Position numbers and translations under genes: made by a program. Below, piece after piece: positions 2 through 17,600 of a stretch of DNA of 64,000 nt. Below the pieces are notes generated by a model. The model saw only the letters and a list, made by a program, of their open reading frames with translations, had not been told where the DNA came from and did no database searches. Each line of letters begins with the position of its first letter. Position 1 is the first letter of the stretch. The stretch lies in assembly GCF_014836535.1 (NCBI RefSeq), contig NZ_JACSQP010000004.1:124001-188000 (forward strand). The letters are read 5' to 3'. Source of the stretch: Microbacterium pullorum. Its GTDB lineage: Bacteria > Actinomycetota > Actinomycetes > Actinomycetales > Microbacteriaceae.

Positions 2-556
2 GTGGCATCCGCTGTCGCCGAGATCACCGCCGACCTCGGCGCGCCGACGATTCTGGTCAACAACGCCGGGATCATCCGCGACAACCTGCTGTTCAAGATG
101 AGCGAGGACGACTGGGATGCGGTGCTGAGGGTGCACCTGCGCGGCGCGTTCCTCATGACCCAAGCGGTGCAGGCGCACATGGTGGATGCCGGGTGGGGCC
201 GCATCGTGAACCTGTCGTCGACGTCGGCGCTCGGCAACCGCGGGCAGGCGAACTACGCCGCCGCGAAGGCCGGCATGCAGGGCTTCACCAAGACGCTCGC
301 GATCGAGCTGGGGCGGTACGGGGTGACCGCCAACGCGGTGGCCCCCGGGTTCATCCAGACCGACATGACCCGCGCGACGGCGGAGCGCCTGGGGGTGCCG
401 TTCGAGGACTTCGTCGCCGCGATGGCGAAGGAGATCCCGGTGGGGCGCGGAGGGACGCCTGACGACGTCGCGGCGGCGGTGGCGTTCTTCGTGGGCGACG
501 ACGCCGGGTTCATCTCGGGCCAGGTGCTGTACGTCGCGGGAGGGCCGAAGGCATGA
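2..556 (+). CDS. FabG-like short-chain dehydrogenase, 5' end outside the window
   Basis: Only the last 184 residues are visible; roughly 60 N-terminal residues carrying the TGxxxGxG nucleotide-binding turn lie before the window. What remains is a classical SDR: NNAG at visible residues 20-23, catalytic Ser72, Tyr85 and Lys89 (NYAAAK), and a C-terminal substrate-loop/GG region. The family interconverts 3-oxoacyl and 3-hydroxyacyl thioesters with NAD(P)H. Its TGA overlaps the ATG of the MaoC hydratase (ATGA), so the two are probably translated together. That pairing and the thiolase next door favour acyl-CoA breakdown over fatty acid synthesis. This is inference, and the real substrate cannot be read from the sequence. 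Confidence 0.9.
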   Translation: MASAVAEITADLGAPTILVNNAGIIRDNLLFKMSEDDWDAVLRVHLRGAFLMTQAVQAHMVDAGWGRIVNLSSTSALGNRGQANYAAAKAGMQGFTKTLAIELGRYGVTANAVAPGFIQTDMTRATAERLGVPFEDFVAAMAKEIPVGRGGTPDDVAAAVAFFVGDDAGFISGQVLYVAGGPKA

Positions 557-1014
557 GCATCGCGGTGGAGTCGCCGGCGGGGCTTCCCGCTGTCGTGGGC
601 GCGTCGGCGACCGGGGACTGGTTCGAGATCACGCAGGAGCGCATCACGGCGTTCGCCGACGCGACCGAGGATCGGCAGTGGATACACCTGGATGCCGAGC
701 GCGCGGCATCCGGCCCCTTCGGGGGCACGATCGCGCACGGGTACCTGACCCTGTCGCTGCTGCCGCGGCTGACCGAGGGGCTGCTGCAGGTGGGCGGGAC
801 CGCGATGGCGGTGAACTACGGCCTCGACAAGGTGCGGTTCCTGCAGCCGGTGCGCGCGGGGTCGCGCGTGCGGGCGGTGACGGAGCTCGCATCGGCGGAC
901 GAGACGCCCCAGGGGGTGCGGGTGGGGATGCGCACGACCGTCGAGATCGACGGCTCCCCCAAGCCCGCGCTGGTCGCCGAGACGCTGGCGCTCGTCGTCC
1001 CCGCTACCGAGTGA
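553..1014 (+). CDS. MaoC family enoyl-CoA hydratase
   Basis: A 153-residue single hot-dog protein of normal size for MaoC-type (R)-specific enoyl-CoA hydratases, which add water to a 2-enoyl-CoA. The hydratase-2 signature is clear: Asp40 and His45 in DRQWIHLD, followed by GPFGGTIAHGYLTLSLL at 54-70. The Asp/His pair is the catalytic dyad of the family. The ATG overlaps the stop of the preceding SDR by four bases. The last codons and the TGA lie inside the first copy of the 20-bp intergenic repeat (...ACCGAGTGA), so the repeat supplies the stop. With the SDR and the convergent thiolase it supplies the hydration, oxidation and cleavage steps of beta-oxidation. Confidence 0.9.
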   Translation: MSIAVESPAGLPAVVGASATGDWFEITQERITAFADATEDRQWIHLDAERAASGPFGGTIAHGYLTLSLLPRLTEGLLQVGGTAMAVNYGLDKVRFLQPVRAGSRVRAVTELASADETPQGVRVGMRTTVEIDGSPKPALVAETLALVVPATE

Positions 1015-1099
1015 GTATTCGCATCGCCGAGTGAGTATTCGCATCGCCGAGTGAGTATTCGTCGCGAATGCTCACTCGGCACGACGAATGCTCACTCGC
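1007..1099. repeat. 20-bp repeat array, three direct and two inverted copies
   Basis: Three copies of CCGAGTGAGTATTCGCATCG-like units (starting 1007, 1027, 1047) meet two inverted copies (CGAATGCTCACTCGG near 1066 and 1086). The innermost pair can form a 13-bp stem with one mismatch. The array fills the gap between two convergent genes and provides the TGA of both: maoC at 1012-1014 and, on the other strand, the thiolase at 1092-1094. A bidirectional terminator is a plausible role. Related arrays lie near 7.4, 9.1, 10.3, 41.9 and 43.7 kb. Confidence 0.9.
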
Positions 1100-2306
1100 G
1101 GGCGAGCACGAGGGCCATGCCCTGGCCGCCGCCGACGCACATCGTCTCGAGGCCGTAGCGGCCACCGGTCGCGGCGAGTCCGTTGATCAGCGTCGACGTG
1201 ATGCGCGCGCCCGTCATGCCGAACGGATGCCCGACCGCGATCGCCCCGCCGTGCACGTTCAGCCGCGACTCGTCGATGCCGAGCTCGCGCGCCGAGGGGA
1301 TCACCTGCGCGGCGAACGCCTCGTTGATCTCGACCAGATCCATGTCGTCGATCCCGAGGCCCGCGCGCGCCAGCGCCTGCCGCGACGCCTCCACCGGGCC
1401 GAGCCCCATCACCTCGGGAGACAGCCCACTCACCCCGGTGGAGACGATCCGCGCCAGCGGCTGCAACCCGAGCGCCTCTACGACCCGCTCCGACACGATC
1501 ACGACCGCCGCCGCCCCGTCGTTGAGCGGGCAGCAGTTGCCCGCCGTCACGGTGCCGTCGGGGCGGAACACCGGGTCGAGCCCCGCGAGCCCTGCGGCGG
1601 TCACCCCCGGCCGCGGTCCGTCGTCGGTCTGCACCACCGTCCCGTCGTCGAGGGTCACCGGCGTGATGTCGCGCGCCCAGAATCCCGATGCGATCGCCGC
1701 CTCGGCCCGCTGCTGCGAACGCGCGGCGAAGGCATCCTGCTCCTCTCGCGTCACCCCGTGCAGCTGCGCCACGTTCTCGGCGGTCTGCCCCATCGCGATG
1801 TAGGCGTCGGGCAGCCTGCCGTCGGCCCGCGGGTCGCGCCACACCGGAGCACCCGCCTGCGCCCCCGCGGCCGTGCGCGCCGCGGCATCCGCGAACACCG
1901 GATTCACCGCATCCGGCAGGTCGGCGAACCCGTGCGCGTACTGCGAGACCGACTCCACCCCGGCTGAGACGAACACATCGCCCTCGCCCGCCTTGATCGC
2001 GTGGAACGCCATGCGGGTCGTCTGCAGCGACGACGAGCAGTACCGGTTCACGGTCGTGCCCGGCACGGCATCCAACCCGAGCAGCACCGCGACGATGCGC
2101 GCGATGTTCATGCCCTGGCGTCCCGCCGGCTGCCCGGTGCCGACCATCAGGTCGTCGATGCGGCCGGGATCCAGCGCCGGCACCTGCGCGAGCGCCGCGC
2201 GCACCATCTGCGCCACGAGGTCGTCGGGGCGCATGTCGGCCAGCGATCCCTTGCGGGCCCGGCCGATCGGCGAGCGGGCGGTGGCGACGATGTACGCCTC
2301 GCTCAT
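1092..2306 (-). CDS. Thiolase (acetyl-CoA C-acyltransferase)
   Basis: A 404-residue degradative-type thiolase of normal length. Cys90 in NRYCSSSLQ is the acyl-carrying nucleophile, GHP at 359-361 gives His360, and Cys390 in METMCVGGGQG-like context (ETMCVGGGQG) is the second catalytic cysteine. The family cleaves 3-oxoacyl-CoA with CoA, releasing acetyl-CoA. The ATG overlaps the TGA of the upstream acyl-CoA dehydrogenase (ATGA), so the two form a translationally coupled pair. The stop codon is inside the inverted repeat array shared with maoC. Biosynthetic acetoacetyl-CoA formation is possible for the fold, but the neighbours argue for degradation. Confidence 0.92.
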   Translation of the reverse strand: MSEAYIVATARSPIGRARKGSLADMRPDDLVAQMVRAALAQVPALDPGRIDDLMVGTGQPAGRQGMNIARIVAVLLGLDAVPGTTVNRYCSSSLQTTRMAFHAIKAGEGDVFVSAGVESVSQYAHGFADLPDAVNPVFADAAARTAAGAQAGAPVWRDPRADGRLPDAYIAMGQTAENVAQLHGVTREEQDAFAARSQQRAEAAIASGFWARDITPVTLDDGTVVQTDDGPRPGVTAAGLAGLDPVFRPDGTVTAGNCCPLNDGAAAVVIVSERVVEALGLQPLARIVSTGVSGLSPEVMGLGPVEASRQALARAGLGIDDMDLVEINEAFAAQVIPSARELGIDESRLNVHGGAIAVGHPFGMTGARITSTLINGLAATGGRYGLETMCVGGGQGMALVLARE

Positions 2307-3550
2307 GACACGAACGCCTGGATGCCGGTGATCTCGCGGCCGACGATGAGGGTGTTCATGTCGTGCGTGCCCTCGAAGGTGTAGATCGCCTCCGCGTCGC
2401 AGAACGCCCGCGCCGCGCCGTAGTCGAGTGTGATCCCGTTGCCGCCCATCACCTCACGGCAGAGCGCGACGGTCTCGCGCATCCGCGCGGAGACGAACGC
2501 CTTCGCCATCGCGGCCTGCGCGTCGGTCTGCGCGTCGTCGTCCTGCAGCTGCGATACCCGGGTGCACATCGCGAGGCACGCCGTGATGTTCCCGAGCGCC
2601 GTGGCGAGCTTGTGCTGCACCAGCTGGAAAGACCCGATGGGCTTGCCGAACTGCTCGCGCTCGCCGGTGTACCGCACCGCCGCCTCGTACGCGCCGATGC
2701 CGTTGCCCAGCGCCTGCCACGCCACCTCGGCGCGGGTGAGGCGCAGCACGACGGCGACCTCGGTGAACGAGTGGATCCGCTGCAGCCGCAGCGACTCCGG
2801 CACGACCACGCCGGTGAGGGTGATGTCGGCGTTCTCCACCGCGCGCAGCGACTGCTTGCGCTCGATCTTCGTCGCGGCGTACCCGGGGGAGGACGTCGGC
2901 ACGATGAACCCCTTCATCTCGCCGTCGCCGGTGTCGCGCGCCCACACCACCGTGATGTCCGAGAACGCCCCGCTGCCGATCCAGCGCTTCGCGCCGTCGA
3001 TCACCCATTCGTCGGCGCCGTCGGCTCCCACCCGCCGCGTGGCGGTGGTGCGCAGCCCGCGCGCGGTGTCCGATCCCGACAGCGGCTCGGTGAGCGCGAA
3101 CGCGCCCACGATCTCGCCGCGTGCCATCGGCCCGAGCCACCGCTCGCGCTGCTCGTCGGAGCCGCCGACCCAGATCGCATTCATAGCGAGGCCGCTGTGC
3201 ACGCCCAGGAAGGTCGCCGTCGAGGCATCCACTCGCGAGATCTCCAGTGCCACCCACCCGCGGTACAGGGCGCTGTTGTCGTACTGGGCGACCTCGGGGA
3301 TGCCGGCGCCGAGCATGCCCAGCTCGGCGAAGCGGGGGAAGAGGTGCCGGGGGCTCTCCGCGCGTTCCCAGAACTCGTCGGCGCGCGGGGCGACCTCGCG
3401 CTGCAGGAAGTCGCGGATGCGCCCCAGCTGCGCGCGCTCGCCGTCGGTGAGCGCCGCCTGCAGATCGTAGAAGTCGGCATGCAGGCGCGGGGCGGGCGCG
3501 GCGGGCGCGGTGGCTGCGTGGTCTGCGGGGGTGGTGAGGGTGAGCGGCAT
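2303..3550 (-). CDS. Acyl-CoA dehydrogenase, glutaryl-CoA dehydrogenase/ACX4-like
   Basis: A 415-residue FAD flavoprotein that introduces the 2,3 double bond into an acyl-CoA. Visible marks are FALTEPLSGSD (FAD/substrate loop), the KRWIGSG region, a long helical C-terminal domain, and Glu393 in YTFEGTHDMN at the position of the glutaryl-CoA dehydrogenase base. The ending NTLIVGREITGIQAF is typical of the GCDH/ACX4 branch. I chose the ATG at 3550 because GGAGGAGCG lies just upstream; an earlier in-frame start at 3598 has no such site. It is translationally coupled to the thiolase and divergent from a TetR regulator, with a perfect dyad between them. Decarboxylating activity cannot be decided here. 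Confidence 0.9.
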   Translation of the reverse strand: MPLTLTTPADHAATAPAAPAPRLHADFYDLQAALTDGERAQLGRIRDFLQREVAPRADEFWERAESPRHLFPRFAELGMLGAGIPEVAQYDNSALYRGWVALEISRVDASTATFLGVHSGLAMNAIWVGGSDEQRERWLGPMARGEIVGAFALTEPLSGSDTARGLRTTATRRVGADGADEWVIDGAKRWIGSGAFSDITVVWARDTGDGEMKGFIVPTSSPGYAATKIERKQSLRAVENADITLTGVVVPESLRLQRIHSFTEVAVVLRLTRAEVAWQALGNGIGAYEAAVRYTGEREQFGKPIGSFQLVQHKLATALGNITACLAMCTRVSQLQDDDAQTDAQAAMAKAFVSARMRETVALCREVMGGNGITLDYGAARAFCDAEAIYTFEGTHDMNTLIVGREITGIQAFVS

Positions 3551-3590
3551 CGCTCCTCCGATCGTCGGTGATCCGGTGTGACGCCCATCA

Positions 3591-3614
3591 TGCAACATTT
3601 CTCAGGATGTTGCA
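3591..3614. promoter_or_regulatory. 24-bp dyad, likely operator of the divergent TetR regulator
   Basis: TGCAACAT (3591-3598) and ATGTTGCA (3607-3614) form a perfect 8-bp inverted repeat around an 8-base centre. It sits in the only gap between the acyl-CoA dehydrogenase/thiolase pair and the TetR gene, at a size and spacing usual for TetR dimers. Autoregulation plus control of the divergent operon is inferred from position. Confidence 0.65.
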
Positions 3615-3643
3615 TCCGCCTCCCACGGCGATAGAGTTCCGGC

Positions 3644-4285
3644 ATGTCCGCGCCCGCACCCGAGAGCCTCGCCGCCATCGCGACGGTGGGGGTGGATGCC
3701 GCGCCGTCGTGGCTCTCGGAGCGCCTGGCATCCCACCCCGACTCCCGCCGCGCGTTCGACCTCGCCCGGGAGTTGTTCATCGCCGGGCACCGCATCGACA
3801 TGGGCGGGCTGGCCTCGACGCTCGGGGTCGACCGCACGTCGCTGTTCCGCTGGGTGGGCAACCGCGATGCGCTGCTGAGTGAGGTGCTGTGGTCGCTGGC
3901 GGTCCCCACCCTCGTGCAGGCCGACCGCGCCACGGCGGAAAGAACCGGGGCGGACCGTGTCGCCGAACTGCTGACGCACTTCGTCGCCGACCTCAACCGG
4001 GCGCCGTACTTCCGCGAGTTCCTCCGCCGCGAGCCGGCGCGCGCGCTGCGGCTGCTCACGACGAAGGAGAGCGAGATCCAGCGGCGCTACGTCGCCACGG
4101 CCGAGTGGCTCGTGCGCGGCGAACTCGGCGAGCAGCCGCTCGGTGGAGCGATCGACGTGCACAACCTCGCGTACCTGCTCGTGCGCGTGTCGGAATCGTT
4201 CACGTACGCCGACCTCATCGCCGGCGATCAGCCCAGCGCTGCGCGTGCCCGCGCCGCATTCCGCGTGCTGCTGCGCGCCGACTGA
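3644..4285 (+). CDS. TetR family regulator, QsdR-like
   Basis: A 213-residue regulator with an N-terminal helix-turn-helix at about residues 48-75 (MGGLASTLGVDRTSLFRWVG) and an all-helical ligand domain. The DRTSLFRWVGNRDALL recognition segment resembles the QsdR group of TetR proteins, whose founding member controls gamma-lactone/N-acyl-homoserine-lactone catabolism in Rhodococcus. That resemblance is from memory of the family and should be checked. The gene is divergent from the acyl-CoA dehydrogenase/thiolase pair and is followed 15 bases later by a thioesterase gene. The dyad at 3591-3614 is its likely binding site. Confidence 0.85.
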   Translation: MSAPAPESLAAIATVGVDAAPSWLSERLASHPDSRRAFDLARELFIAGHRIDMGGLASTLGVDRTSLFRWVGNRDALLSEVLWSLAVPTLVQADRATAERTGADRVAELLTHFVADLNRAPYFREFLRREPARALRLLTTKESEIQRRYVATAEWLVRGELGEQPLGGAIDVHNLAYLLVRVSESFTYADLIAGDQPSAARARAAFRVLLRAD

Positions 4286-4300
4286 ACCCCTGGAGGACCG

Positions 4301-4714
4301 ATGCCGCACTACGGCGTGCGCCGCCCGTTCGCGACCCGCTGGCGCGACAACGACCAGTACGGGCACCTCAACAACGTCGTCTACTACGAGGCGATGGACA
4401 CCGCCGTCAACGCGTGGATGATCGCCGAGGCGGGCCTGGAGCCTGCGGCATCCCCCGTCATCGCCCTCGTGGTGTCGTCGTCATGCGACTTCCGCGCGTC
4501 GGCGTCGTTCCCCGAGCCGCTCGAAGTGGGCATCGGTGTGGCGCGGCTCGGCACGACGAGCATCACGTGGGCGCTGGGGATCCTGCGCCCCGGCGCGGGG
4601 GAGCCGATCGCCGTCGGCACGTTCGTTCACGTGTTCGTGGATGCCGCGACGCGCCGGCCCGTGTCAGTGCCGGACCGGGTGCGCGCGGCCGTGGCCGCGC
4701 AGCTCTCGGGGTAG
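4301..4714 (+). CDS. 4HBT-type acyl-CoA thioesterase
   Basis: A 137-residue hot-dog thioesterase. The signature RWRDNDQYGHLNNVVYYE (residues 13-30) contains Asp18 at the catalytic position of 4-hydroxybenzoyl-CoA thioesterases, followed by the usual asparagines. It would hydrolyse an acyl-CoA to acid and CoA, perhaps relieving CoA trapping in the surrounding pathway. The start is well supported by CTGGAGGACCG just before the ATG. It probably shares a transcript with the TetR gene 15 bases upstream. Substrate unknown. Confidence 0.88.
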   Translation: MPHYGVRRPFATRWRDNDQYGHLNNVVYYEAMDTAVNAWMIAEAGLEPAASPVIALVVSSSCDFRASASFPEPLEVGIGVARLGTTSITWALGILRPGAGEPIAVGTFVHVFVDAATRRPVSVPDRVRAAVAAQLSG

Positions 4715-5066: not shown

Positions 5067-5096
5067 TTGGCGACAAACCGACCAGGCGGTATGCTG
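5067..5096 (+). promoter_or_regulatory. Promoter with TetR-type box ahead of the kinase/ACAD/ligase operon
   Basis: TTGGCG (5067-5072), a 17-base spacer and TATGCT (5090-5095) make a reasonable sigma-70-type promoter. The spacer holds AAACCGACCAGGCGGTATG (5075-5093), which differs by one base from the box at 15233-15251 and matches the palindrome at 18379-18398. A repressor bound here would cover both promoter elements. The first gene starts 39 bases downstream. Confidence 0.6.
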
Positions 5097-5133
5097 ATTC
5101 GGCGACGCGATGCGGCGCGGAGAGGGGTCGACG

Positions 5134-6162
5134 ATGACCGACGTGCCGGGGCTCGATGTGCAGCGGCTGACCGACTGGCTGGCGGCCTCACACCCCGACC
5201 TCGCCGACGGCGACCTCACGGCCACTGTCATCGCGGGTGGCCGCAGCAACCTCACCTACGCGATCGACGGCGCGCGCCGCCCGCTCGTGCTGCGGCGCCC
5301 GCCGCTGGGCCACGTGCTCGCCAGCGCCCACGACATGCGCCGCGAGCACCGGGTGATCTCGGCGCTGGCATCCACGCCGGTGCCGGTCCCCGTCGCTGTC
5401 GATGTGGTCGACGACACCGGTGGCGCGATCACCGGCACCACGTTCTTCCTCATGGAGCGCGCCCCCGGCCGGGTGCTGGCGAGTCCCGCGCACAACGCCG
5501 GGTATGACCCTGCGGGCCTCGCCCGGCTGAGCACCGACCTGGTGCGCACCCTCGCCGACCTGCACGGCGTGGAGCCGGCATCGGTGGGGCTGACGGACTT
5601 CGGCCGCGCCGATGGGTACCTCCAGCGGCAGCTGTCGACGTGGCACCGGCAGCTGGCCGCCTCGCGTTCGCGTGAGACCCCGACGCTCGACGCCCTACAG
5701 GAACGACTGGGCGCGGGGATGCCACGCACCCGCCGGTCGGGCATCGTGCACGGCGACTACCGCCTCGACAACGCCCTCGTCGACGGGCCGGAGCCGCGCC
5801 TGTCGGCCGTGCTGGACTGGGAGATGGCGACGCTGGGCGACCCGCTCGTGGACCTCGGCATCTTCGCGCTGTACTGGGACATCGCCGCCCTTCCCGCCGC
5901 GTTCGGCGGAGCGATCCCGAGCGCCGTCGACCCGGCCGCCGGCTACCCCCGCTTCGACGAGCTCGCCGAAGTGTACGCCCGGCACGCGGGAACCGACCTG
6001 CCCGACCTCGGCTGGTACCGCGCCTTCGCGGCGTACAAGCTCGCGGTGATCCTGGAGGGAATCCATTTCCGGTTCCGCGCCGGCGACACCGTCGGCGAGG
6101 GATTCGAGGGCATGGGCGCCCTGGTGGAACCGCTCGCCCACCAAGGTCTGGAGGCCCTCTGA
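5134..6162 (+). CDS. APH-family kinase, LvaA/ACAD10-11 N-terminal-domain-like
   Basis: A 342-residue phosphotransferase with the aminoglycoside-phosphotransferase fold. The Brenner loop is intact: His206-Gly-Asp208 with Asn213 (HGDYRLDN), and the metal-binding DWE at 228-230 in VLDWEMATLGDPLVDLG. In animal ACAD10/ACAD11 and in Pseudomonas LvaA this domain phosphorylates the 4-hydroxyl of 4-hydroxyacyl-CoA rather than an antibiotic. I chose the ATG at 5134 because GGAGAGGGG precedes it; the one at 5110 lacks a site. The stop overlaps the start of an ACAD11-like dehydrogenase (TGATG), the natural partner. A phosphotransferase acting on another hydroxyacyl-CoA remains possible; drug resistance is unlikely. 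Confidence 0.88.
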   Translation: MTDVPGLDVQRLTDWLAASHPDLADGDLTATVIAGGRSNLTYAIDGARRPLVLRRPPLGHVLASAHDMRREHRVISALASTPVPVPVAVDVVDDTGGAITGTTFFLMERAPGRVLASPAHNAGYDPAGLARLSTDLVRTLADLHGVEPASVGLTDFGRADGYLQRQLSTWHRQLAASRSRETPTLDALQERLGAGMPRTRRSGIVHGDYRLDNALVDGPEPRLSAVLDWEMATLGDPLVDLGIFALYWDIAALPAAFGGAIPSAVDPAAGYPRFDELAEVYARHAGTDLPDLGWYRAFAAYKLAVILEGIHFRFRAGDTVGEGFEGMGALVEPLAHQGLEAL

Positions 6163-7388
6163 TGCATTTCGCCCACGATGACACCACCCGCGAACTCGCC
6201 GAACGGGCGCGCACGTTCGTCGACGACACCGTGATTCCTACGGAGCCGGTGCTGCAGGAACAGCTCGATGCCACGCCCGACCAGTGGGGCTTCCGACCGA
6301 TCGTGACCCAGCTGCGCGAACGCGCCCGCGCGGCGGGGCTGTGGAACCTGTTCCTCCCCGGCGAGCACGGGGCGGGGCTGACGAACCTGCAGTACGCCCC
6401 CATCGCCGAGGTCACCGGCTGGAGCCCTCGGCTCGCGCCGGTCGCGTTCAACTGCGCCGCCCCCGACACCGGCAACATGGAGGTGCTGCACGACTTCGGC
6501 ACACCCGCCCAGCAGAAGCAGTGGCTCGAGCCGCTGTTGGCCGCGCACATCCGCTCGGCGTTCTGCATGACCGAGCCCGACGTCGCCTCGAGCGATGCGA
6601 CGAACATCGGCACCCGCATCCGCCGCGACGGCGACCACTACGTGGTCAGCGGGCGCAAGTGGTGGTCGACGGGCGCGATGAACCCGGATGCCGCGATCTT
6701 CATCGTCATGGGCAAGACCGATCCCGATGCCGTGCGGCACCGGCAGCAGTCGATGATCCTCGTGCCACGCGACGCCCCCGGCGTGCGGGTCGTGCGGGCG
6801 CTCACGGTGTTCGGCTACGACGACCGTGACCACGGCGGGCACGCCGAGGTGGCGTTCGACGACGTGCGGGTGCCGGCTGCGAACCTCATCGCCGGGGAGG
6901 GCGACGGCTTCGCCATCGCGCAGGCACGCCTCGGGCCCGGTCGCATCCACCACTGCATGCGGGCGCTCGGCATGGGCGAGCGGGCGCTGGCGCTCATGAC
7001 GGACCGCGCGAACGCGCGCGTCGCGTTCGGGCGCACCCTGGGGGAGCAGGGGGTGATCCGCGAGTGGGTCGCCGAGGCGCGCATCGAGCTGGAGTCGCTG
7101 CGGCTGCTCGTGCTCAAGACCGCGTGGCTCATGGACACCGTCGGCAACCGCAAGGCGATGACCGAGATCCAGGCGATCAAGATCGCCGTGCCGCGCGCCG
7201 TGCAGCGGATCCTCGATCGGGCGATCCAGGTCTTCGGCGCGGCAGGGGTGTCGCAGGACACCCCGCTGGCCGAGCTGTTCGCCGGCGTCCGGACCCTCCG
7301 CATCGCCGACGGCCCCGACGAAGTGCACCTCGCGAGCCTCGGCCGCGCCCAGTTGCGCTCCCGAGTGAGTATTCGCGCCGCCGAGTGA
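6162..7388 (+). CDS. ACAD11-like acyl-CoA dehydrogenase
   Basis: A 408-residue acyl-CoA dehydrogenase of the ACAD10/ACAD11 branch. Diagnostic stretches are ASSDATNIGTRI, GRKWWSTGA, GPGRIHHCMRALG and IADGPDEVH (383-389), which follow the mammalian ACAD11 dehydrogenase domain closely. In that system the enzyme acts on the 4-phosphoacyl-CoA made by the kinase half and eliminates phosphate, ending in a 2-enoyl-CoA. Here the two halves are separate genes overlapping by one base. The C-terminal residues SRVSIRAAE and the TGA are encoded by the 20-bp repeat array, so the natural C-terminus has apparently been replaced or extended. The next gene is the acyl-CoA ligase. Confidence 0.92.
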   Translation: MHFAHDDTTRELAERARTFVDDTVIPTEPVLQEQLDATPDQWGFRPIVTQLRERARAAGLWNLFLPGEHGAGLTNLQYAPIAEVTGWSPRLAPVAFNCAAPDTGNMEVLHDFGTPAQQKQWLEPLLAAHIRSAFCMTEPDVASSDATNIGTRIRRDGDHYVVSGRKWWSTGAMNPDAAIFIVMGKTDPDAVRHRQQSMILVPRDAPGVRVVRALTVFGYDDRDHGGHAEVAFDDVRVPAANLIAGEGDGFAIAQARLGPGRIHHCMRALGMGERALALMTDRANARVAFGRTLGEQGVIREWVAEARIELESLRLLVLKTAWLMDTVGNRKAMTEIQAIKIAVPRAVQRILDRAIQVFGAAGVSQDTPLAELFAGVRTLRIADGPDEVHLASLGRAQLRSRVSIRAAE

Positions 7389-7415
7389 GTATTCGCGCCG
7401 CCGAGTGAGTACTCG
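7361..7415. repeat. 20-bp repeat array, three direct copies
   Basis: Three head-to-tail copies of CCGAGTGAGTATTCGCGCCG begin at 7361, 7381 and 7401; the last is cut and has ACTCG. The first unit is read as coding sequence (RVSIRAA) by the ACAD11-like gene, and the second supplies its TGA at 7386-7388. It lies between two genes on the same strand, so it is not restricted to convergent gene ends. Confidence 0.9.
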
Positions 7416-7448
7416 ACAGAAGTTCCGTTCAACGACGAAAGGACCATC

Positions 7449-9053
7449 ATGACCCACCGAGCCGACCCCGCCATCGACGGCCCCGGCTTCGCGACGCTCT
7501 CGGTCGCGAGCCTCCTGACCGAATCCGCGCGCCGTCACGCCGACCGCCCGGCGCTGCTGTTCGCCGGCACCACGACGACCTACGCGCAGCTGTGGGACGA
7601 GGTGCGCGCGTACGCGGGCGCCCTGCGCGACCGCGGCATCGGCCCCGGCGACCGGGTCGCGATGATCGTGCCGAACGTGCCCGACTTCGCCCGCGTCTAC
7701 TACGCCGCACTCGCCCTCGGCGCCGTCGTCGTGCCCGTGCATCTGCTCTTCAAGGCCGAGGAGATCGCGTACGTGCTGCGCGACGCCGAGGCCGATCTCT
7801 TCGTCGTGGCAGCGCCCCTGCTCGGCGAGGCGCTGCCGGCCGCGGCGGCCACCGGCATCCCGGTCGTGACCGTGCTGCTGCCGGCGGGCACCCCGGCGCC
7901 GGTGGGAGACCTGCCGCGCCTCGAGGTCGAGGCGGCGGCGGCGACCCCGATCGAGCGGCACACCGCCACCCGCCCGACCGACCCGGCGACCATCCTGTAC
8001 ACCAGCGGCACCACCGGCACGCCCAAGGGTGCCGTCGGCTCCCATCTGGCCCTCGTGGAGCAGGTGCACTGCTCCCTCATCGACTCGTTCGACCTGCACT
8101 CCGGCGACGTCGTGTTCGGCGGACTGCCGCTGTTCCACACCTTCGGGCAGACGGCGGTGATGAACATGGCGATTCGCGTGGGGGCGTCGATCATCCTGCT
8201 GCCGAGGTTCGACGCAGACGAGGCGCTGGCTCTCATGGTCGCGCACGGGGCGACGGTGTTCACGGCCGTGCCGACGATGTACGTCGGGATGCTGGAGGCG
8301 GCTCGCCGCAGCGACACCCGCCCGCCGCTGCGGTACGCGGTCTCCGGGGGTGCAGCGCTCCCCGTCGCGGTGCTCGAGGCGTTCCGCGACGTCTTCGGCG
8401 CCGACGTGCACGAGGGGTACGGACTGACCGAGACGGCGCCGATCGTGTCGTCGAACTCGCTGGTCGAGCCGATCCGGCCCGGCACCGTCGGGCGCCCGCT
8501 CTGGGGCGTCGATGTGGCGATCGCCGACCCCGAAGAGGAGGAGCGCATCACCCTGCTCGCCGACCCCGACGCGCTCGGCGAGGTGGTGGTGCGCGGGCAC
8601 AACCTGTTCAAGGGATACCTGGGTCGCCCCGATGCGACCGACGCCGCGATCGTCGACGGCTGGTTCCGCACCGGCGACCTGGGGCGCTTCGTCGACGGGG
8701 TGCTCACGATCGTTGATCGCAAGAAGGACATGATCGTGCGCAGCGGCTACAACGTGTACCCCACCGAGGTCGAAGCCGTGATCGCGCGTCACCCGGGGGT
8801 CGCCGTCGCCGCCGTGTTCGGCGTGGCCGACGACCTGCGCGGGCAGGAGGTGCACGTCGCCGTGGTGGCGCACGACGGGCAGACGGTGGATGCCGACGAG
8901 CTGATCGCCTTCACGCGGGACCGGATCGCGGCGTACAAGTACCCCCGGACCGTGCACGTGCTCTCGGAGCTGCCCCTGGGCGGAAGCGGCAAGGTACTGA
9001 AGCGGGAGCTGGTGGCGCGGTTCTCGCCCGCCCCCGCGGCGGCTGCCGAGTGA
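7449..9053 (+). CDS. Acyl-CoA ligase (AMP-binding, FadD-like)
   Basis: A 534-residue ANL-superfamily enzyme that adenylates a carboxylic acid and transfers it to CoA. Motifs are in order: ILYTSGTTGTPKG near 182-194 (phosphate loop), YGLTETAP near 323, GWFRTGDLG near 404, DRKKDMIVRSGYNVYP from about 423, and the catalytic lysine in SGKVLKREL near 513. AAAGGA precedes the ATG. It is the third gene of the kinase/ACAD11-like operon and would activate the incoming acid, as LvaE does for levulinate. The final Glu codon and TGA are inside the next 20-bp repeat array. Chain-length preference is not visible. Confidence 0.93.
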   Translation: MTHRADPAIDGPGFATLSVASLLTESARRHADRPALLFAGTTTTYAQLWDEVRAYAGALRDRGIGPGDRVAMIVPNVPDFARVYYAALALGAVVVPVHLLFKAEEIAYVLRDAEADLFVVAAPLLGEALPAAAATGIPVVTVLLPAGTPAPVGDLPRLEVEAAAATPIERHTATRPTDPATILYTSGTTGTPKGAVGSHLALVEQVHCSLIDSFDLHSGDVVFGGLPLFHTFGQTAVMNMAIRVGASIILLPRFDADEALALMVAHGATVFTAVPTMYVGMLEAARRSDTRPPLRYAVSGGAALPVAVLEAFRDVFGADVHEGYGLTETAPIVSSNSLVEPIRPGTVGRPLWGVDVAIADPEEEERITLLADPDALGEVVVRGHNLFKGYLGRPDATDAAIVDGWFRTGDLGRFVDGVLTIVDRKKDMIVRSGYNVYPTEVEAVIARHPGVAVAAVFGVADDLRGQEVHVAVVAHDGQTVDADELIAFTRDRIAAYKYPRTVHVLSELPLGGSGKVLKRELVARFSPAPAAAAE

Positions 9054-10362: not shown

Positions 10363-11673
10363 TCAGGCGCCGGGGACCGCGGCGCCTGACAGCGGCACGG
10401 GCTGCCGGTCCACGGACGAGACACTGCCGTCACGCACCTCGTAGGTTGCGTCGACGTAGTCCTGCACGCCCTGGTCCACCGTCGTGATGCCCACGCCGAG
10501 GTACGCCGCGTGGCTGTCGGGTCCGAACGCCAGCGGCAGGATGCCGTTGCCGACGAGGTCGCCCGACTGCACCGCCTCGATGAGGGCCTCGCGCGTCGGG
10601 TTCTCGCCCGCCGCAGCCAGCGCCTCGGCGAAGACGTACCCCACGCTCATGCCGAAGATCGTGTTGCCGTCGAAGGGAGCGTCGCCGTTGTACTCCGTGT
10701 TGATCTCGCGGAAGAGTTCGACCCACTCGTCGTCTGCCATCGGCAGGTAGTTGGTGCCCGTGAATCCCTGCAGCAGCTTCGGTGCCACGTCCTCGCCCAG
10801 GTATCCCACGAGCGTCGGGTAGTCCGCGCCCGACGACGAGGCGAACCACTGCGGGAACCAGCCGAGCTGCGCCGCGGTCCCGACCGCGAGCGCGGTGAAG
10901 CCGTTGATGGTCGCCAGCGTCACGATGTCGCATCCGGCGGCCTGCAGCGCGCCGATCTGCGCGGTGACGTCCTGGTTCGACACCGAGTAGCGCTGCACCT
11001 CGGTCAGGCCGTCGGCGCCGAGGGCCATCTCGAGGCCCTCGAGGAACTCGTCGCCGAAGTCGTCGTCCTGGCCGAGCATGCAGACCGCCGCGTCGGGGAA
11101 CTCGTCGGCCGCGTACTGGCCGAGCGCGGCGCCTTCCACGACGTAGTCGGCGTTGAACCCGAACGTGTTCGGGTAGGTCTCGGGCTGGTTCCACGAGGTC
11201 GAGCCGGATGCCACGAACAGGTCGGGCACCGAGTTCTGGTCGAGGAAGTCCAGCACCGACTGGTGCGTCGCCGTGCCGAGGCCGTTGAGGATCGCGAAGA
11301 CCTCGTCCTGCTGCACGAGCTCGCGCACGACGGTCTGCGAGTTGGCGGGGTTGTACCCGTCGTCCTTCACGATGTACTCGATCGTGCGACCGTTCACCCC
11401 ACCCTGGTCGTTGAGGTAGTCGAAGTACGCGTTCGTGGCGGCGGAGATCGACGAGTAGCCGGCGGCGGCCGGGCCGGTCAGCGGCGTGTGGGTGCCGATG
11501 GTGACGGTGGTGTCGGTCACGCCGGTGCTGTCGCCTGCGGTCTCGCCCTCACCGCCGGACGCCGGCGCCGAAGGGGTGCTGCAGGCCGCGAGGCTGACAG
11601 CGAGGGCGGATGCCGCGATCAGACCGCCCGTGCGACGGGCGGCAGAGCGCAGCGTTGAGCTCTGTTGGGACAT
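10363..11673 (-). CDS. ABC importer substrate-binding lipoprotein (Liv type)
   Basis: A 436-residue periplasmic-binding-type protein of the branched-chain amino acid/amide family. The N-terminus has a positive stretch, a hydrophobic core and the lipobox SLAAC, with Cys31 as the expected lipid anchor, so it is tethered outside the membrane. The mature part contains VTIGTHTPLTGPAA near the N-terminus and a two-lobe Peripla_BP_6 pattern. The start at 11673 has AAAGGTGAT upstream. It is the last gene of a five-gene livG-F-H-M-binding-protein operon. In actinobacteria these importers carry many carboxylates; the neighbours suggest the acid degraded by this region, which is inference. Confidence 0.92.
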   Translation of the reverse strand: MSQQSSTLRSAARRTGGLIAASALAVSLAACSTPSAPASGGEGETAGDSTGVTDTTVTIGTHTPLTGPAAAGYSSISAATNAYFDYLNDQGGVNGRTIEYIVKDDGYNPANSQTVVRELVQQDEVFAILNGLGTATHQSVLDFLDQNSVPDLFVASGSTSWNQPETYPNTFGFNADYVVEGAALGQYAADEFPDAAVCMLGQDDDFGDEFLEGLEMALGADGLTEVQRYSVSNQDVTAQIGALQAAGCDIVTLATINGFTALAVGTAAQLGWFPQWFASSSGADYPTLVGYLGEDVAPKLLQGFTGTNYLPMADDEWVELFREINTEYNGDAPFDGNTIFGMSVGYVFAEALAAAGENPTREALIEAVQSGDLVGNGILPLAFGPDSHAAYLGVGITTVDQGVQDYVDATYEVRDGSVSSVDRQPVPLSGAAVPGA

Positions 11674-11677
11674 GGGA

Positions 11678-12871
11678 TCACCTTTCAATCGGGATGGTGC
11701 GGGAAGAGTCAGAGGATGCCGTGGTGTCGGATGCCGGCGCGGCCGGGTCCGCCGCCCCGGCCGGGGGTGCCGCTGGGTCAGAACCCGCCGACGAGGACGA
11801 CCCCGAGGGCCCCGCCGGGACCACCCCGGAACGCCGCCGCCGCAAGGTGCCCGCCAGGCCCGCCAGCCCGTCGGGGCGCAGGATCATGACGGCGATGAGC
11901 AGCGCTCCGAAGACGAGGAGCGACAGGTTGCCCGAGAGCCGCTGTTCGAGGTCGCGGGGCAGGTCCAGTGCGGCGGAGCCCGCGCCGAGGGCCCAGGGCA
12001 GCACCACGATGACAACCGAGCCGAGGGCGGCGCCGCCGATGCTCCCGAGCCCGCCGAGCACGGCGGCCACCACGAGCAGCAGCGAGAACGCGAGCGTATA
12101 GCCGCCGGGGCCGACCGACTGCGTGATGAAGCAGAGCACCGCACCGCCCGCGCCCGCCGCGGCGGCGCTGAGGGTGAAGGCCGTCACCTTGACGCGTCGG
12201 GCGGGAACGCCGTTCAGGCGCGCGGCGGTCTCGTCGTCGCGGACGGCCCGCATGCGAAGCCCCAGCGTGCCCCGCCGCACGAGGGTGAGGCACGTCACCA
12301 CGATGGATGCCACGATGATCGCCACCCACGCCTGCCACTGCTCCAGGGCGATGAGCCGCTCCAGCGCCGTCGGTACCGCGTTGTAGGTTGCCTGCAGTCC
12401 CTGGTCGCCGCGGAAGATGCCCGACCACACGCTCGTGATGGCGGGGACGGCGATGACGAGGGCCAGGGTCAGGCCGGCGAGGTAGGGACCGTGCAGCCGC
12501 GCGGCGGCGAGTCCCAGCAGCAGCCCGAGCAGGCATGCGATCGCGACCCCGGCCACGAGCGACACGACGAAGCGCGGCACACCGTCGACACCGGCATCCG
12601 TCAGCGCGTTCGACGTGAGGGCGTAGCCGTAGCCGCCCGCGGCCATCAGCGCGGCGTGCCCGAGCGAGAGCTGCCCGCTCAGTCCGACGAGCAGGCTGAG
12701 CCCGGCGACGGCGCAGAAGTACGCGGCGGCGGTGGCGAGCTGGAAGTTGCGGAACGGGTCGAGCAGGAACGTCCCGCCGAGGGCCAGCACCGTCAGTACG
12801 ACCGCGGTCCACAGCACGCGCGGGGTGCCGGTGAGGCCGGGAAGGAAGCGGGGAACGCGTGAGCCGGTCAT
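11678..12871 (-). CDS. livM: Liv-type ABC permease, LivM-like
   Basis: A 397-residue integral membrane protein with many hydrophobic segments and the LivM landmark SGQLSLGHAALMAAGGYGYA near residues 64-83, followed by GPYLAGLTLALV and FRGDQGL. It forms half of the membrane channel of the importer. The last 60 residues form an Ala/Pro/Ser-rich, acidic cytoplasmic tail (SGVVPAGPSGSSSSAG and onward) longer than usual for the family. The gene overlaps livH by four bases (ATGA) and ends four bases before the binding-protein start. Confidence 0.92.
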   Translation of the reverse strand: MTGSRVPRFLPGLTGTPRVLWTAVVLTVLALGGTFLLDPFRNFQLATAAAYFCAVAGLSLLVGLSGQLSLGHAALMAAGGYGYALTSNALTDAGVDGVPRFVVSLVAGVAIACLLGLLLGLAAARLHGPYLAGLTLALVIAVPAITSVWSGIFRGDQGLQATYNAVPTALERLIALEQWQAWVAIIVASIVVTCLTLVRRGTLGLRMRAVRDDETAARLNGVPARRVKVTAFTLSAAAAGAGGAVLCFITQSVGPGGYTLAFSLLLVVAAVLGGLGSIGGAALGSVVIVVLPWALGAGSAALDLPRDLEQRLSGNLSLLVFGALLIAVMILRPDGLAGLAGTLRRRRSGVVPAGPSGSSSSAGSDPAAPPAGAADPAAPASDTTASSDSSRTIPIER

Positions 12872-13746
12872 GCGGTGCGCGCCTGTCGCATCGAGAAGAT
12901 GCCGCCGGGTTTGACCAGCAGCACCCCCACCAGCAGCACGAGCACCCCGATCGGGGCGACGGTGGAACCGAGGTAGCCGGTGACGAGGCTCATCACGACG
13001 CCGACGACGAGGCCGCCCAGCAGCGCTCCGATCGGCGAATCGAGGCCCCCGACGACGGCGACGGTGAACGCGTAGACGAAGAGGATGTCGGTGGAGTGCG
13101 GGTTGAGGCCGAGCTCAGTGGGGATGAGCAGCATCGCGGCGAGGGCCGCGACCGCGGCCGAGAGCATCCACCCGATCGTCACCATGCGGTCCACGCGCAC
13201 GCCCAGCAGCCGCGACACCTCAGGCGCGAACGCGGATGCCCGCAGCTGCAGGCCGAGGGAGGTGCGGGTGAACAGCAGTGCGAGCAGTCCCATGACCGCG
13301 AGGGCCACGACGAGCACGAAGATGTCGTAGGGCGAGAGCAGTGGCACCCCGCCGACGAAGATCGGCGTCTCGTCGAAGGGCGCGGCCATGGGCCGGTACT
13401 GCGGGCCGAAGAAGATGCCCAGCAGCGACTGCAGCACCATCACCAGCCCGATGGCGATGATGATGCCCGACAGCGGCGAACTGTGGGGAGCGTGGCGCAT
13501 GAGCCCGCGCTCGACCACGAAGCCGATGGCGGCGCCCCCGAGGATGCCGGCGGCCAGCCCCGCGGCATACGAGCCGGTGAGCGCGGTGACGGCGAACGCG
13601 AGGTAGGTCGCCACCAGCGCCATGGCGCCCTGGGCGAAGTTGATGATGCGGGCGGCCCGCCAGATGAGCACGAGCGACAGGGCGAACAGCGCGAAGATCG
13701 CGCCGCGGGCAAGGCCGGTGGCGAGCAGGAAGGCGAGGCGGTCCAT
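12868..13746 (-). CDS. livH: Liv-type ABC permease, LivH-like
   Basis: A 292-residue membrane protein of normal LivH size. The segment SLVLIWRAARIINFAQGAMA near residues 24-43 is the family signature, and the C-terminus GVLLVKPGGIFS is also typical. It pairs with LivM to make the channel. The gene is overlapped at both ends: one base with livF and four with livM, showing a single operon. Confidence 0.93.
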   Translation of the reverse strand: MDRLAFLLATGLARGAIFALFALSLVLIWRAARIINFAQGAMALVATYLAFAVTALTGSYAAGLAAGILGGAAIGFVVERGLMRHAPHSSPLSGIIIAIGLVMVLQSLLGIFFGPQYRPMAAPFDETPIFVGGVPLLSPYDIFVLVVALAVMGLLALLFTRTSLGLQLRASAFAPEVSRLLGVRVDRMVTIGWMLSAAVAALAAMLLIPTELGLNPHSTDILFVYAFTVAVVGGLDSPIGALLGGLVVGVVMSLVTGYLGSTVAPIGVLVLLVGVLLVKPGGIFSMRQARTA

Positions 13747-14462
13747 CAGAATCCCAGGTAGGCGTGGCGCAGGGCGGTGTCGTCTGCGAGGGCGGATGCC
13801 GCGGCATCCGCCACGACACGACCGAGATCCAGCACCACGCCGCGGCCGGCGATCGACAGCGCGCTGGTGATGTTCTGCTCGGCCAGGAGTACGGTCATGC
13901 CGTCGCGGGCGGCGGCGTCGCGGAGGGTCGCCATCAGCTGGGCGACCACGAGCGGGGCGAGCCCCAGCGACGGTTCGTCGAGGGTGAGCACGCGGGGGCG
14001 GGAGACGAGCGCCCGACCGAGGGCGAGCATCTGGCGCTCGCCGCCGGAGAGCTGATGGCCGTCGCTGGCGCGGCGGCGGGCGAGGGGCTCGAACAGCTCA
14101 TAGACCTCTGCCACGGCCACGTCACGCGCCCGGCCGCGATGCCGCCACAGCGACCCGAGCCGCAGGTTCTCGTCGACGGTGAGCTCGGCCACGACGCTGC
14201 GCCCCTCGGGCACCTGCGCGATGCCGCGACGGGCGCGGTCTTCGGGGCTGAGGCGGGCGAGGTCGTCGCCGTCGAGGCGGATCGTGCCGGAGCGGGGTCG
14301 CACGAATCCGGCGAGGGTGCGCAGCAGCGTCGTCTTGCCCGCGCCGTTCGCGCCGAGCAGCGCCACGATCTCGCCCGGTTCGAGCGCGAACGTGACATGG
14401 TGCAGCACCGGCTCGCCGCCGTACCCGACGGTGAGGTCGTGAAACGACAGTGCCCCGTTCAT
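13746..14462 (-). CDS. livF: Liv-type ABC ATPase, LivF-like
   Basis: A 238-residue ATP-binding subunit. Walker A is GANGAGKT at 37-44, the signature is QLSGGERQM, and Walker B is VLTLDEPSLGLAP, followed by the switch histidine region replaced by LLAEQN as in other LivF proteins. It powers the importer with LivG. Start and stop overlap livG (ATGA) and livH. Confidence 0.94.
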   Translation of the reverse strand: MNGALSFHDLTVGYGGEPVLHHVTFALEPGEIVALLGANGAGKTTLLRTLAGFVRPRSGTIRLDGDDLARLSPEDRARRGIAQVPEGRSVVAELTVDENLRLGSLWRHRGRARDVAVAEVYELFEPLARRRASDGHQLSGGERQMLALGRALVSRPRVLTLDEPSLGLAPLVVAQLMATLRDAAARDGMTVLLAEQNITSALSIAGRGVVLDLGRVVADAAASALADDTALRHAYLGF

Positions 14463-15193
14463 GCGGTGGCCTTCAGGCCCAGGTACGCCTCTTCGACGGC
14501 GGGATCGGTGCGCACCTCATCGGGGGTGCCGCGGGCGATGACGCGGCCGAAATCGAGCACCACCACCCGATCGGCGACCGACATGACGAAGTCGACGTGG
14601 TGCTCGACCAGCAGCACGGCGCAGCCGGCGTCGGCGGTCGCGCGCACGGTGCGGGCGAGGGCGGCGATGTCGTCGTGGCCGAGGCCACCGGCCGGTTCGT
14701 CCAGCAGCAGCAGCCGCGGGTCGCTCACGAGGGCGCGGGCCAGGGCCACGCGCTTGCGCACCGGGTAGGGGAGTGCGGCGACCGGGCGGTCGGCGACGGC
14801 CAGCAGGTCGTGGGTGGCGAGTTCGGCGGCGACGCGCGCGGCGGCACGCCTGGTCGTGCCCGGCGCACTCAGGGGAACCGCGACGTTCTCACGTACGGTG
14901 GCGCCCTCGAACAGCCCGAGTCCCTGCAGGGTGCGGGCCACACCGAGCCGGGTGAGCGCCGAGGTGCGCGGCGGGATCGGTCGGCCGTCGAGGCGGATGT
15001 CGCCGCGACTGCGCACGAGCGCGCACACCGCGTTGAAGACCGTGGTCTTGCCGGCGCCGTTCGGTCCGATGAGGGCGACGACCTGGCCCGCCGGCACGTC
15101 GAACGAGACATCCTGCAGTGCGGTGAGGCCGCCGAAGGTCACGGTGAGGCCGTCCACGGCAAGCCGGGGAACGGGGGTGGCGGGAGTGGTCAT
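14459..15193 (-). CDS. livG: Liv-type ABC ATPase, LivG-like
   Basis: A 244-residue ATP-binding subunit with Walker A GPNGAGKT and Walker B LLLLDEPAGGLGHDD. The ABC signature is degenerate: LPYPVRKRVALARAL replaces the usual LSGGQ-like motif, a variation often seen in LivG. The start at 15193 has AAGAGGTGCCG upstream; a longer reading frame exists but lacks support. It is the first gene of the importer operon, and the TetR-type box at 15233-15251 lies 40 bases before it. Confidence 0.92.
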   Translation of the reverse strand: MTTPATPVPRLAVDGLTVTFGGLTALQDVSFDVPAGQVVALIGPNGAGKTTVFNAVCALVRSRGDIRLDGRPIPPRTSALTRLGVARTLQGLGLFEGATVRENVAVPLSAPGTTRRAAARVAAELATHDLLAVADRPVAALPYPVRKRVALARALVSDPRLLLLDEPAGGLGHDDIAALARTVRATADAGCAVLLVEHHVDFVMSVADRVVVLDFGRVIARGTPDEVRTDPAVEEAYLGLKATA

Positions 15194-15232
15194 CGGCACC
15201 TCTTCGTGTCGGGTGACGCCACTGTACCTCAT

Positions 15233-15251
15233 AAACCGACCAGCCGGTATG
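15233..15251. promoter_or_regulatory. TetR-type box upstream of the importer operon
   Basis: AAACCGACCAGCCGGTATG matches the box at 5075-5093 in 18 of 19 positions. It lies between the importer start (15193) and the end of the SDR gene (15292), so it most likely controls the importer on the minus strand. Confidence 0.65.
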
Positions 15252-15291: not shown

Positions 15292-16035
15292 TCACTTATG
15301 CGGGATGCCGGTGACCATGCCGCCGTCGACGACGAACTCGGCCCCGCTGGTGAAGCGGGACGCGTCGGAGGCGAGGAAGACGATCGTGCCCGCGACGTCA
15401 TCGGGGGTGCCCGCGCGCCCGAGGGGGATGTCGATGCGCTCGGGGTCGATGCGCGTGGTCATGTCGGTGAGGATGAGGCCCGGGTGCACCGAGTTCACGC
15501 GGATGCCGCGCGGACCGAGCTCGACGGCGAGCGACTTCGTCAGCCCGCGCACCCCGAACTTCGCCGCCGTGTAGCCGTGCAGGCCGGGGCTGCCGCGCAG
15601 ACCCTCGACGGAGGAGATGTTGATGATCGAGCCGCCGCCGGCATCCGCCATCGCCGGAACGACCGCGCGGCAGCCGAGGAAGGTGCCGGTCAGGTTCACC
15701 GCGATGACGGCGTTCCACTTGGCCATCGAGTAGTGCTCGATCGGGGCGGCGTTGGCGATGCCGGCGTTGTTGACCAGCACGTCGATGCCGCCGAAGCGCT
15801 CGAGGGCCCCGGCGACGACGGCATCCCACCCCGCCTCGTCGGTGACGTCGAGATGCAGGAAGGCGGCGCGCGGGCCGAGGGCGTCGACCAGGGCCGTGCC
15901 TTCGTCGTCGAGCAGGTCGGCCACCACCACGCTCGCCCCCGCGGTGTGCAGAGCCCGCACGTAGGCGGCGCCGAGGCCGCGGGACCCGCCGGTGACGAGC
16001 GCCGTGCGCCCGGCGAGGTCGAACGGCGAGGTCAC
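15292..16035 (-). CDS. Short-chain dehydrogenase (3-hydroxyacyl/alcohol dehydrogenase type)
   Basis: A 247-residue classical SDR. It has TGGSRGLG at 15-22, NNAG at 89-92, Ser142, Tyr155 and Lys159 (YTAAK), and Asp40 after the second strand, which suggests NAD rather than NADP. The GTG start at 16035 is set by a GTGA overlap with the stop of the quinone-reductase-like gene; this excludes a much longer frame that reads antisense-like sequence. It probably oxidises a hydroxyacyl-CoA or alcohol in the surrounding pathway. Confidence 0.9.
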   Translation of the reverse strand: MTSPFDLAGRTALVTGGSRGLGAAYVRALHTAGASVVVADLLDDEGTALVDALGPRAAFLHLDVTDEAGWDAVVAGALERFGGIDVLVNNAGIANAAPIEHYSMAKWNAVIAVNLTGTFLGCRAVVPAMADAGGGSIINISSVEGLRGSPGLHGYTAAKFGVRGLTKSLAVELGPRGIRVNSVHPGLILTDMTTRIDPERIDIPLGRAGTPDDVAGTIVFLASDASRFTSGAEFVVDGGMVTGIPHK

Positions 16036-17015: not shown

Positions 17016-17600
17016 CTACTCCTTCGTGGTCCGGATGCTGGTGAGGAAGAGATCGGTCAGCTGCGCGGCGAGCTGCGAGGCGGATTCGGGGCCGGCGGGC
17101 GAATACCAGTGCGAGAGATAGTGCACGTCGCTGAAGAAGTGGGCGATGAGCACGGGCACCGGGATGTCGGTGCGGAACAGCCCTTCGGCCTGCCCCTGCG
17201 CGATGAGCGCGGCGACCTCGTCGTGGTAGGCGCGGCGCCGGCGGGTGACCTCCTGCTGGCGGGGTGCGGAGAGCATGTGGGCGCTGCGGAAGAAGACGGT
17301 GCCCTCGGGGAGGAACTCGATCGACGTCTCGAGCACGTCCACGCACACCGCACGCAGAATCGCATCGGCCGCCCCGCCGCCGGCGACGATCTCGTCCAGG
17401 CGCGCCTTCTGCAGCGTCAGCAGCCGGTCGTAGATGCCGAACAGCAGGTCGTCCTTCGACTCGAAGTAGTGGTACATCGCGCCCTTGGTGACCCCGGCCG
17501 CCTCGACGATCTGCTGCACGCTGGTGTTGGCGTAGCCCTGCTCGGCGAAGAGGTCGACGGCGGCACGGGTGACGGCGTCGGCGACGCTGGTCTGCTTCAT
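17016..17600 (-). CDS. TetR/AcrR family regulator of the catabolic cluster
   Basis: A 194-residue regulator. The DNA-binding helices occupy residues about 26-52 (SVQQIVEAAGVTKGAMYHYF) and are followed by a helical ligand domain of normal size. It is embedded in an operon of two SDRs and a quinone reductase. Three copies of a palindromic box, CATACCGWCCGG-like, lie before this operon, before the importer and before the kinase/ACAD11/ligase operon. It is the best local candidate to bind them, because the other TetR gene (3644) has its own different dyad. The ligand is unknown but could be an acyl-CoA. Confidence 0.88.
   Translation of the reverse strand: MKQTSVADAVTRAAVDLFAEQGYANTSVQQIVEAAGVTKGAMYHYFESKDDLLFGIYDRLLTLQKARLDEIVAGGGAADAILRAVCVDVLETSIEFLPEGTVFFRSAHMLSAPRQQEVTRRRRAYHDEVAALIAQGQAEGLFRTDIPVPVLIAHFFSDVHYLSHWYSPAGPESASQLAAQLTDLFLTSIRTTKE

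Follow-up and report, generated by a model that had tools for sequence, protein, structure and literature searches.

The operon studied here belongs to a 64,000-nucleotide stretch of the Microbacterium pullorum genome (hereafter, the window) and encodes a kinase and an acyl-CoA dehydrogenase resembling the two halves of mammalian ACAD11, followed by an acyl-coenzyme A (CoA) ligase (Table 1). By analogy with characterized enzymes, the two proteins probably form an ACAD11-type pair that removes the 4-hydroxyl group of CoA-bound 4-hydroxy acids. Such an enzyme pair is of a kind already known; what is newer is its predicted regulon, whose regulator is reassigned from a QsdR-like TetR protein to another TetR. 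Our proposal, made with slightly less than even confidence, is that an actinobacterial 4-hydroxy-acid regulon exists in which one TetR repressor and the site CATACCGAC-N2-GTCGG(T/C)ATG would control the pair and a CoA ligase, with a Liv-type importer and oxidoreductases added in Microbacterium relatives. The inducer would be a CoA ester of the pathway.

The kinase-dehydrogenase-ligase operon

An earlier note, made from the sequence alone, had described overlapping kinase and dehydrogenase genes followed by a ligase gene, and this layout was confirmed: the kinase stop codon (TGA, 6160-6162) and the dehydrogenase start codon (ATG, 6162-6164) share one base, and all the motif stretches quoted in that note were found. 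The broader description of an ACAD11-type dehydrogenase with a related kinase directly 5', a ligase 3' and beta-oxidation genes around is also supported. No gene starts at position 5067, where the range 5067-9053 of that note begins; the range does include a predicted operator at 5077.

For comparison we used 93 loci, designated by L numbers: the own locus, 12 from a search of the family, and 80 named genome contigs, the top-ranking ones among at least 596 stretches. One of the 93, L026, has an odd stop position. The kinase reading frame has its first ATG at 5110 and another, preceded by GGAGAGGGG, at 5134; the same context in relatives L020 and L021 makes the latter the more probable start. 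The kinase clusters at 92% identity with that of Microbacterium sp. zg.Y625. In loci L008-L011 and L020-L022, the gene that follows the pair is an equivalent of the window ligase (70-81% identity).

The dehydrogenase is of the ACAD11 type

The dehydrogenase contains the Pfam domains Acyl-CoA_dh N, M and 1. Its closest solved relatives are human ACAD11 (464 bits), mouse ACAD11 (461 bits) and 4hr3 (409 bits), and the score of the next type is 136 bits. Identity to mouse ACAD11 amounts to 220 of 396 aligned residues (56%), the same percentage as that given for Pseudomonas putida LvaC against ACAD11 (PMC11342911; this and other papers are cited from the excerpts available). In mouse ACAD11, residues R626, H634, R637 and D753 are described as holding the 4-phospho group and supplying the base (PMC12440821). 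The equivalents in the window protein are R256, H264 and R267, which belong to the phosphate-binding set of the HCMR helix, and D383, a catalytic Asp in place of Glu; R631, also of the phosphate-binding set, corresponds to R261. Where the ACAD11 type has ADGPD, an ordinary dehydrogenase of the window reads FEGTH. The other dehydrogenases matched in the genome are at most 33% identical to the ACAD11-type protein.

Of 96 loci examined, including the own locus, 95 have the HCMR motif and one has HAMR. As all of them were selected for their similarity to this dehydrogenase, the count reflects conservation within the family and is not an independent test. In six loci (L023, L025, L043, L064, L072 and L076), the ACAD11-type dehydrogenase has the full HCMR/Asp set, and the DNA fetched contains no match to the kinase; in L023, L025 and L043, a MaoC gene lies directly 5' of the dehydrogenase gene.

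The kinase and its relatives

The kinase matches Pfam APH with 163.7 bits, carries the motifs HGDYRLDN and DWE, and is the only one of its type in the genome (a single match). It matches the kinase part of mouse ACAD11 with 157 bits and 101 identities in 294 aligned residues, above the 29% printed for LvaA against ACAD11 (PMC11342911). The catalytic residues D220 and N225 of mouse ACAD11 and R176, on the CoA side, correspond to D216, N221 and R173 in the 350-residue frame. The published R86 position falls on F by count in this comparison, and an Arg adjoins the alphaC Glu in both proteins. The window pair corresponds to mammalian ACAD11 (the comparison covers ACAD11, not ACAD10) in its two components and in its active-site residues. 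In contrast to the fused ACAD10 and ACAD11, however, it is made of two genes, and it is devoid of the HAD part of ACAD10.

The structure predicted for the kinase (mean predicted local distance difference test score, 92.1) has 3dxp as a structural neighbor, followed by a 25-hydroxy steroid kinase and Rv3168. The steroid kinase (9fsg/9ft5) has the same fold and a similar phosphorylate-to-dehydrate role, but shares 23-24% identity with the window kinase, and the available part of its description names no ACAD partner (PMC8449060).

In an unrooted tree built without LvaA and ACAD10, the kinase belongs to an actinobacterial clade beside that of mouse ACAD11, 3dxp and the Burkholderia arboris kinase (supports 98/97 and 100/99). 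Orthologues from Burkholderia pseudomallei, which are separate proteins, replaced the halves of ACAD10 in vitro (PMC11342911); the window kinase lies in a different clade from the B. arboris protein, the tree lacking that of B. pseudomallei. The tree includes 33 hand-picked kinase matches of 84 plus three rows from solved structures. A dehydrogenase tree made of 47 hand-picked matches of 96, two solved-structure rows and one outgroup shows groupings that resemble by eye those of the kinase tree. Loci L017, L057 and L061, with a broken or partial kinase match, were excluded from both.

Distribution of the pair

Using a threshold of E 1e-100 or better, the dehydrogenase was detected in 13 of 150 sampled genomes of the family, own included; its distribution in the family is therefore patchy. 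The kinase gene is directly 5' of the dehydrogenase gene in 72 of the 93 loci and is fused to it in none; in 7 more it lies elsewhere in the fetched DNA. No kinase match above 60 bits was found in the fetched DNA of the remaining 14, one of which, L047, has just 648 bases upstream. A ligase gene comes next after the pair in 10 of the 93. Furthermore, the record of a Rhodococcus opacus PD630 plasmid contains two neighboring genes of this kind annotated as 'family member 11' and 'family member 10'. Given these 72 loci and the annotated plasmid pair, there is no support for regarding this gene order as rare in the group. The split form is the normal bacterial state and is not new: separate kinase and ACAD proteins from P. 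putida and B. pseudomallei are already described in published work (PMC11342911).

Of 103 loci, 5 have a HAD-family gene in the vicinity of the kinase gene (L070:6347-6934, L065:6398-6958, L102:3134-3739, L085:5273-5746 and L086:6360-6917). In L070 and L065 the order is HAD, kinase, dehydrogenase, which matches the domain order of ACAD10. The nearest solved relatives of the L070 protein include YihX and the phosphatase part of epoxide hydrolase 2.

In the lva operon of P. putida, a small gene, lvaB, lies between the kinase and dehydrogenase genes. The one-base overlap in the window operon leaves no room for an LvaB-type gene, and we do not class it as an lva operon; it also differs in that its likely regulator is a TetR protein. 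The two systems are alike in having separate kinase, ACAD-family and ligase genes (LvaA, LvaC and LvaE) in one operon (PMC11342911, PMC12440821).

A conserved palindrome and a candidate TetR repressor

The palindrome ACCGACC-N3-CGGT is found at 5077, 44-57 bases 5' of the kinase ATG at 5134. Extended to ACCGACC-N3-CGGT-ATG, it has exactly three copies in the 3.11-Mb genome, and all of them lie within the window (5077, 15235 and 18382). A one-mismatch copy (C18:122585, or L104:6585) lies about 45 bases before an operon for alcohol dehydrogenase, FabG and MaoC, which continues into the window. The pattern gave four additional matches with one mismatch: the 18382 site read in reverse, and three in other parts of the genome. 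A backward-read control pattern gave one match. A further high-scoring copy at 61799-61812 lies inside an open reading frame, is devoid of the ATG extension and was not counted in the regulon.

A score matrix was built from the four local site cores (three exact, one with a mismatch) and applied to 70 upstream regions of other loci in which the kinase adjoins the dehydrogenase and no fewer than 205 upstream bases are available; the own locus was left out because the matrix came from it. Scores of 12 or more were obtained in 42 of the 70 regions, compared with 0.86% of 1,400 dinucleotide shuffles, and 41 of the 42 sites are placed 29-130 bases before the kinase. The other 28 regions have no site with such a score. 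The region upstream of the kinase has 2.9 sites per kb, against 0.10 per kb in the rest of the loci. Among named genera, the site is present in Microbacterium, Cellulomonas, Amycolatopsis, Microbispora and Streptomyces. In L020 and L021 another site is present at livG, in a place comparable to that of the 15235 site.

When 49 loci of at least 14 kb with an adjacent kinase were classified, 27 had both the site and a homologue of the TetR protein encoded at 17016-17600, 16 had neither, 5 had the site only and 1 had the TetR only (Fisher p 9e-8, a value that overstates independence because the loci are related and many are from Streptomyces). Two of the site-only loci, L020 and L021, end short of where the TetR gene sits in the window. 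A stricter site pattern, used first, had yielded p 0.12. The TetR homologues are mostly 44-49% identical to the window protein. Of the 32 loci with a site, 22 have a ligase gene no more than 5 kb from the pair, versus 3 of the 17 lacking a site, and in 19 of 27 Streptomyces loci the ligase and TetR genes adjoin each other beyond the pair. Because the conserved palindrome and the TetR homologues co-occur, the TetR at 17016-17600 is, on sequence evidence, the likely repressor of the kinase operon. From the shared palindrome we infer joint control with the Liv-type importer and the oxidoreductases.

This TetR shows moderate likeness (64.8 bits) to 3vpr, which we take to be PfmR. Control by PaaR in Burkholderia cenocepacia needs the inverted repeat ACCGACCGGTCGGT (PMC2770484), and the consensus of Thermus PfmR is TACCGACCGNTNGGTN (PMC7022988). 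The window palindrome resembles both sites, which belong to catabolic TetR regulators, as it is itself predicted to do. As in a regulon of the PaaR/PfmR type, a catabolic TetR gene is found together with ACCGAC-type palindromes, predicted to be operators, before several operons; the target genes are, however, different. When three forms of the palindrome core were sought in print, only two papers, both on phenylacetate, were retrieved.

Proposed pathway and alternative explanations

By analogy with LvaA/LvaC and ACAD11, a 4-hydroxyacyl-CoA is the best candidate substrate, and we infer the chemical steps and the acid as follows. The acid would enter through the Liv-type system and be joined to CoA by the ligase, yielding a 4-hydroxyacyl-CoA; where needed, a short-chain dehydrogenase (SDR) would reduce a 4-keto group. 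The kinase would then phosphorylate the 4-hydroxyl, and elimination of the phosphate by the dehydrogenase would leave a 2-enoyl-CoA that could enter beta-oxidation, with the nearby MaoC, SDR and thiolase proteins performing hydration, oxidation and thiolysis.

The same phosphorylate-then-eliminate logic might serve a different hydroxylated CoA ester, such as a branched, cyclic, terpenoid or steroid-derived one, and we regard this as a minority possibility. The rank of the 25-hydroxy steroid kinase and Rv3168 among the structural neighbors of the kinase points in that direction, as do the three SDRs, alcohol dehydrogenase and quinone oxidoreductase of the predicted window regulon. In Tsukamurella (L102), moreover, the row consists of MaoC, kinase, ACAD11-type dehydrogenase, two further dehydrogenases, a phosphotriesterase (PTE)-family protein and ligase, and dehydrogenase-like genes follow the pair in several other loci. 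The dehydrogenase is, however, far closer to ACAD11 than to ordinary solved types and keeps the whole HCMR set, which speaks against this alternative. It is very improbable that an ordinary redox dehydrogenase lies by chance behind an unrelated small-molecule kinase: both superfamilies are certainly very large, but the adjacency recurs in the 72 loci across many families, the two trees group alike by eye, and the base is Asp instead of Glu.

A different question is whether the kinase operon is controlled by the QsdR-like TetR encoded at 3644, which the earlier note had taken as a pointer to lactones. The gene lies upstream of the kinase on the same strand, and its nearest solved relative, 4za6, is QsdR, for which derepression of the qsd operon by a lactone ring has been described (PMC6262395). 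Isothermal titration calorimetry, in contradiction, detected no QsdR binding to gamma-butyrolactone or gamma-caprolactone (PMC4640858). In 3 of 103 loci (L030, L084 and L102; the distant PTE of the own genome uncounted), a PTE-family gene lies no more than about 7 kb from the pair, which would fit such control and make a lactone source possible in relatives; the L102 protein has 4if2 and 2vc5 as nearest solved relatives. In the window genome, however, no PTE-type lactonase gene lies beside the QsdR-like gene, and the sole phosphotriesterase-family match (C18:423400) is about 0.29 Mb from the kinase. In addition, the kinase has a predicted operator of its own that co-occurs with the other TetR, and a separate inverted repeat, ATGCAACAT-N8-ATGTTGCAT, precedes the QsdR-like gene; its form is kept in L020 and L021, and no second exact match exists in the genome. 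This repeat makes the dehydrogenase-thiolase and thioesterase genes the likelier targets of the QsdR-like regulator. Control of the kinase operon by gamma-lactones through this regulator is therefore improbable, and the pointer to lactones is unsupported.

Neighboring genes and repeats

Table 1. Features of the window discussed in the text.
Feature	Position	Strand	Basis or remark
SDR (FabG-like)	2..556	+	begins upstream of window, behind alcohol dehydrogenase gene
MaoC-type hydratase	553..1014	+	
Thiolase	1092..2306	-	
Ordinary acyl-CoA dehydrogenase	2303..3598	-	probable true start near 3550
Separate inverted repeat	3590..3615	.	between ordinary dehydrogenase and QsdR-like gene
QsdR-like TetR regulator	3644..4285	+	TetR_C_36; nearest solved 4za6 (54.5 bits)
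4HBT thioesterase	4301..4714	+	
Predicted TetR operator before kinase	5077..5090	+	pattern search, conservation in relatives
APH-family kinase, LvaA/ACAD11-kinase-like	5134..6162	+	Pfam APH, mouse ACAD11 kinase match; frame open from 5110
ACAD11/LvaC-type acyl-CoA dehydrogenase, predicted 4-phosphoacyl-CoA phosphate eliminase	6162..7388	+	ACAD11 match, kept residues
Acyl-CoA ligase (AMP-forming)	7449..9053	+	AMP-binding 308.9 bits; equivalent gene next in relatives
LivK-type substrate-binding protein	10363..11688	-	Peripla_BP_6
LivM-type permease	11678..12871	-	
LivH-type permease	12868..13746	-	
LivF-type ATPase	13746..14462	-	
LivG-type ATPase, first gene of ATP-binding cassette (ABC) importer operon	14459..15193	-	start judged from translation; scanned as 14459-15199
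Predicted operator before Liv-type ABC operon	15235..15248	.	exact copy; operon on - strand
SDR	15292..16026	-	
Quinone-oxidoreductase-like zinc-family dehydrogenase	16032..17012	-	
TetR-family regulator, predicted repressor of kinase operon	17016..17600	-	TetR_N/TetR_C_24; nearest solved 3dcf, 2iai, 3vpr; co-occurrence
SDR, first gene of TetR operon	17613..18350	-	
Predicted operator before SDR-TetR-quinone oxidoreductase-SDR operon	18382..18395	.	exact copy; 32 bases 5' of operon, - strand

Between the ligase and livK, the window encodes a 331-residue protein (9219-10214) with no Pfam or NCBIfam match; L020 and L021 leave little space for it. Its gene is flanked on both sides by oppositely oriented repeat arrays. 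A 20-base tandem repeat, GAGTGAGTATTCGC(G), forms arrays at 1009-1097, 7363-7415, 9048-9120, 10235-10307, 41885-41917 and 43726-43778. In four genes (MaoC, thiolase, ligase and ACAD11-type dehydrogenase), this repeat supplies the Glu-stop (GAG TGA), and it also encodes the C-terminal residues of the ACAD11-type dehydrogenase; 17 exact 14-mers are present in the whole genome and none in 59 other sampled genomes of the family. Imperfect 41-base tandem repeats containing TACGCGCCCCGAA form arrays at 4737-5054 and 37794-37969, and 32 exact cores are distributed in several arrays of the genome. One array of this kind lies between the thioesterase gene and the kinase operator, a place where L020 has none.

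Significance

ACAD10 and ACAD11 were first tied to 4-hydroxy acids in papers of 2024 and 2025. The kinase-dehydrogenase pair likely allows growth on such acids, and the regulon proposed here is the part that merits testing. The palindrome and its TetR provide a handle for genome searches of the pathway, and a conserved actinobacterial version with a predicted switch, an importer and a ligase would offer tractable genetics to study its substrate range and how the pathway is sensed.

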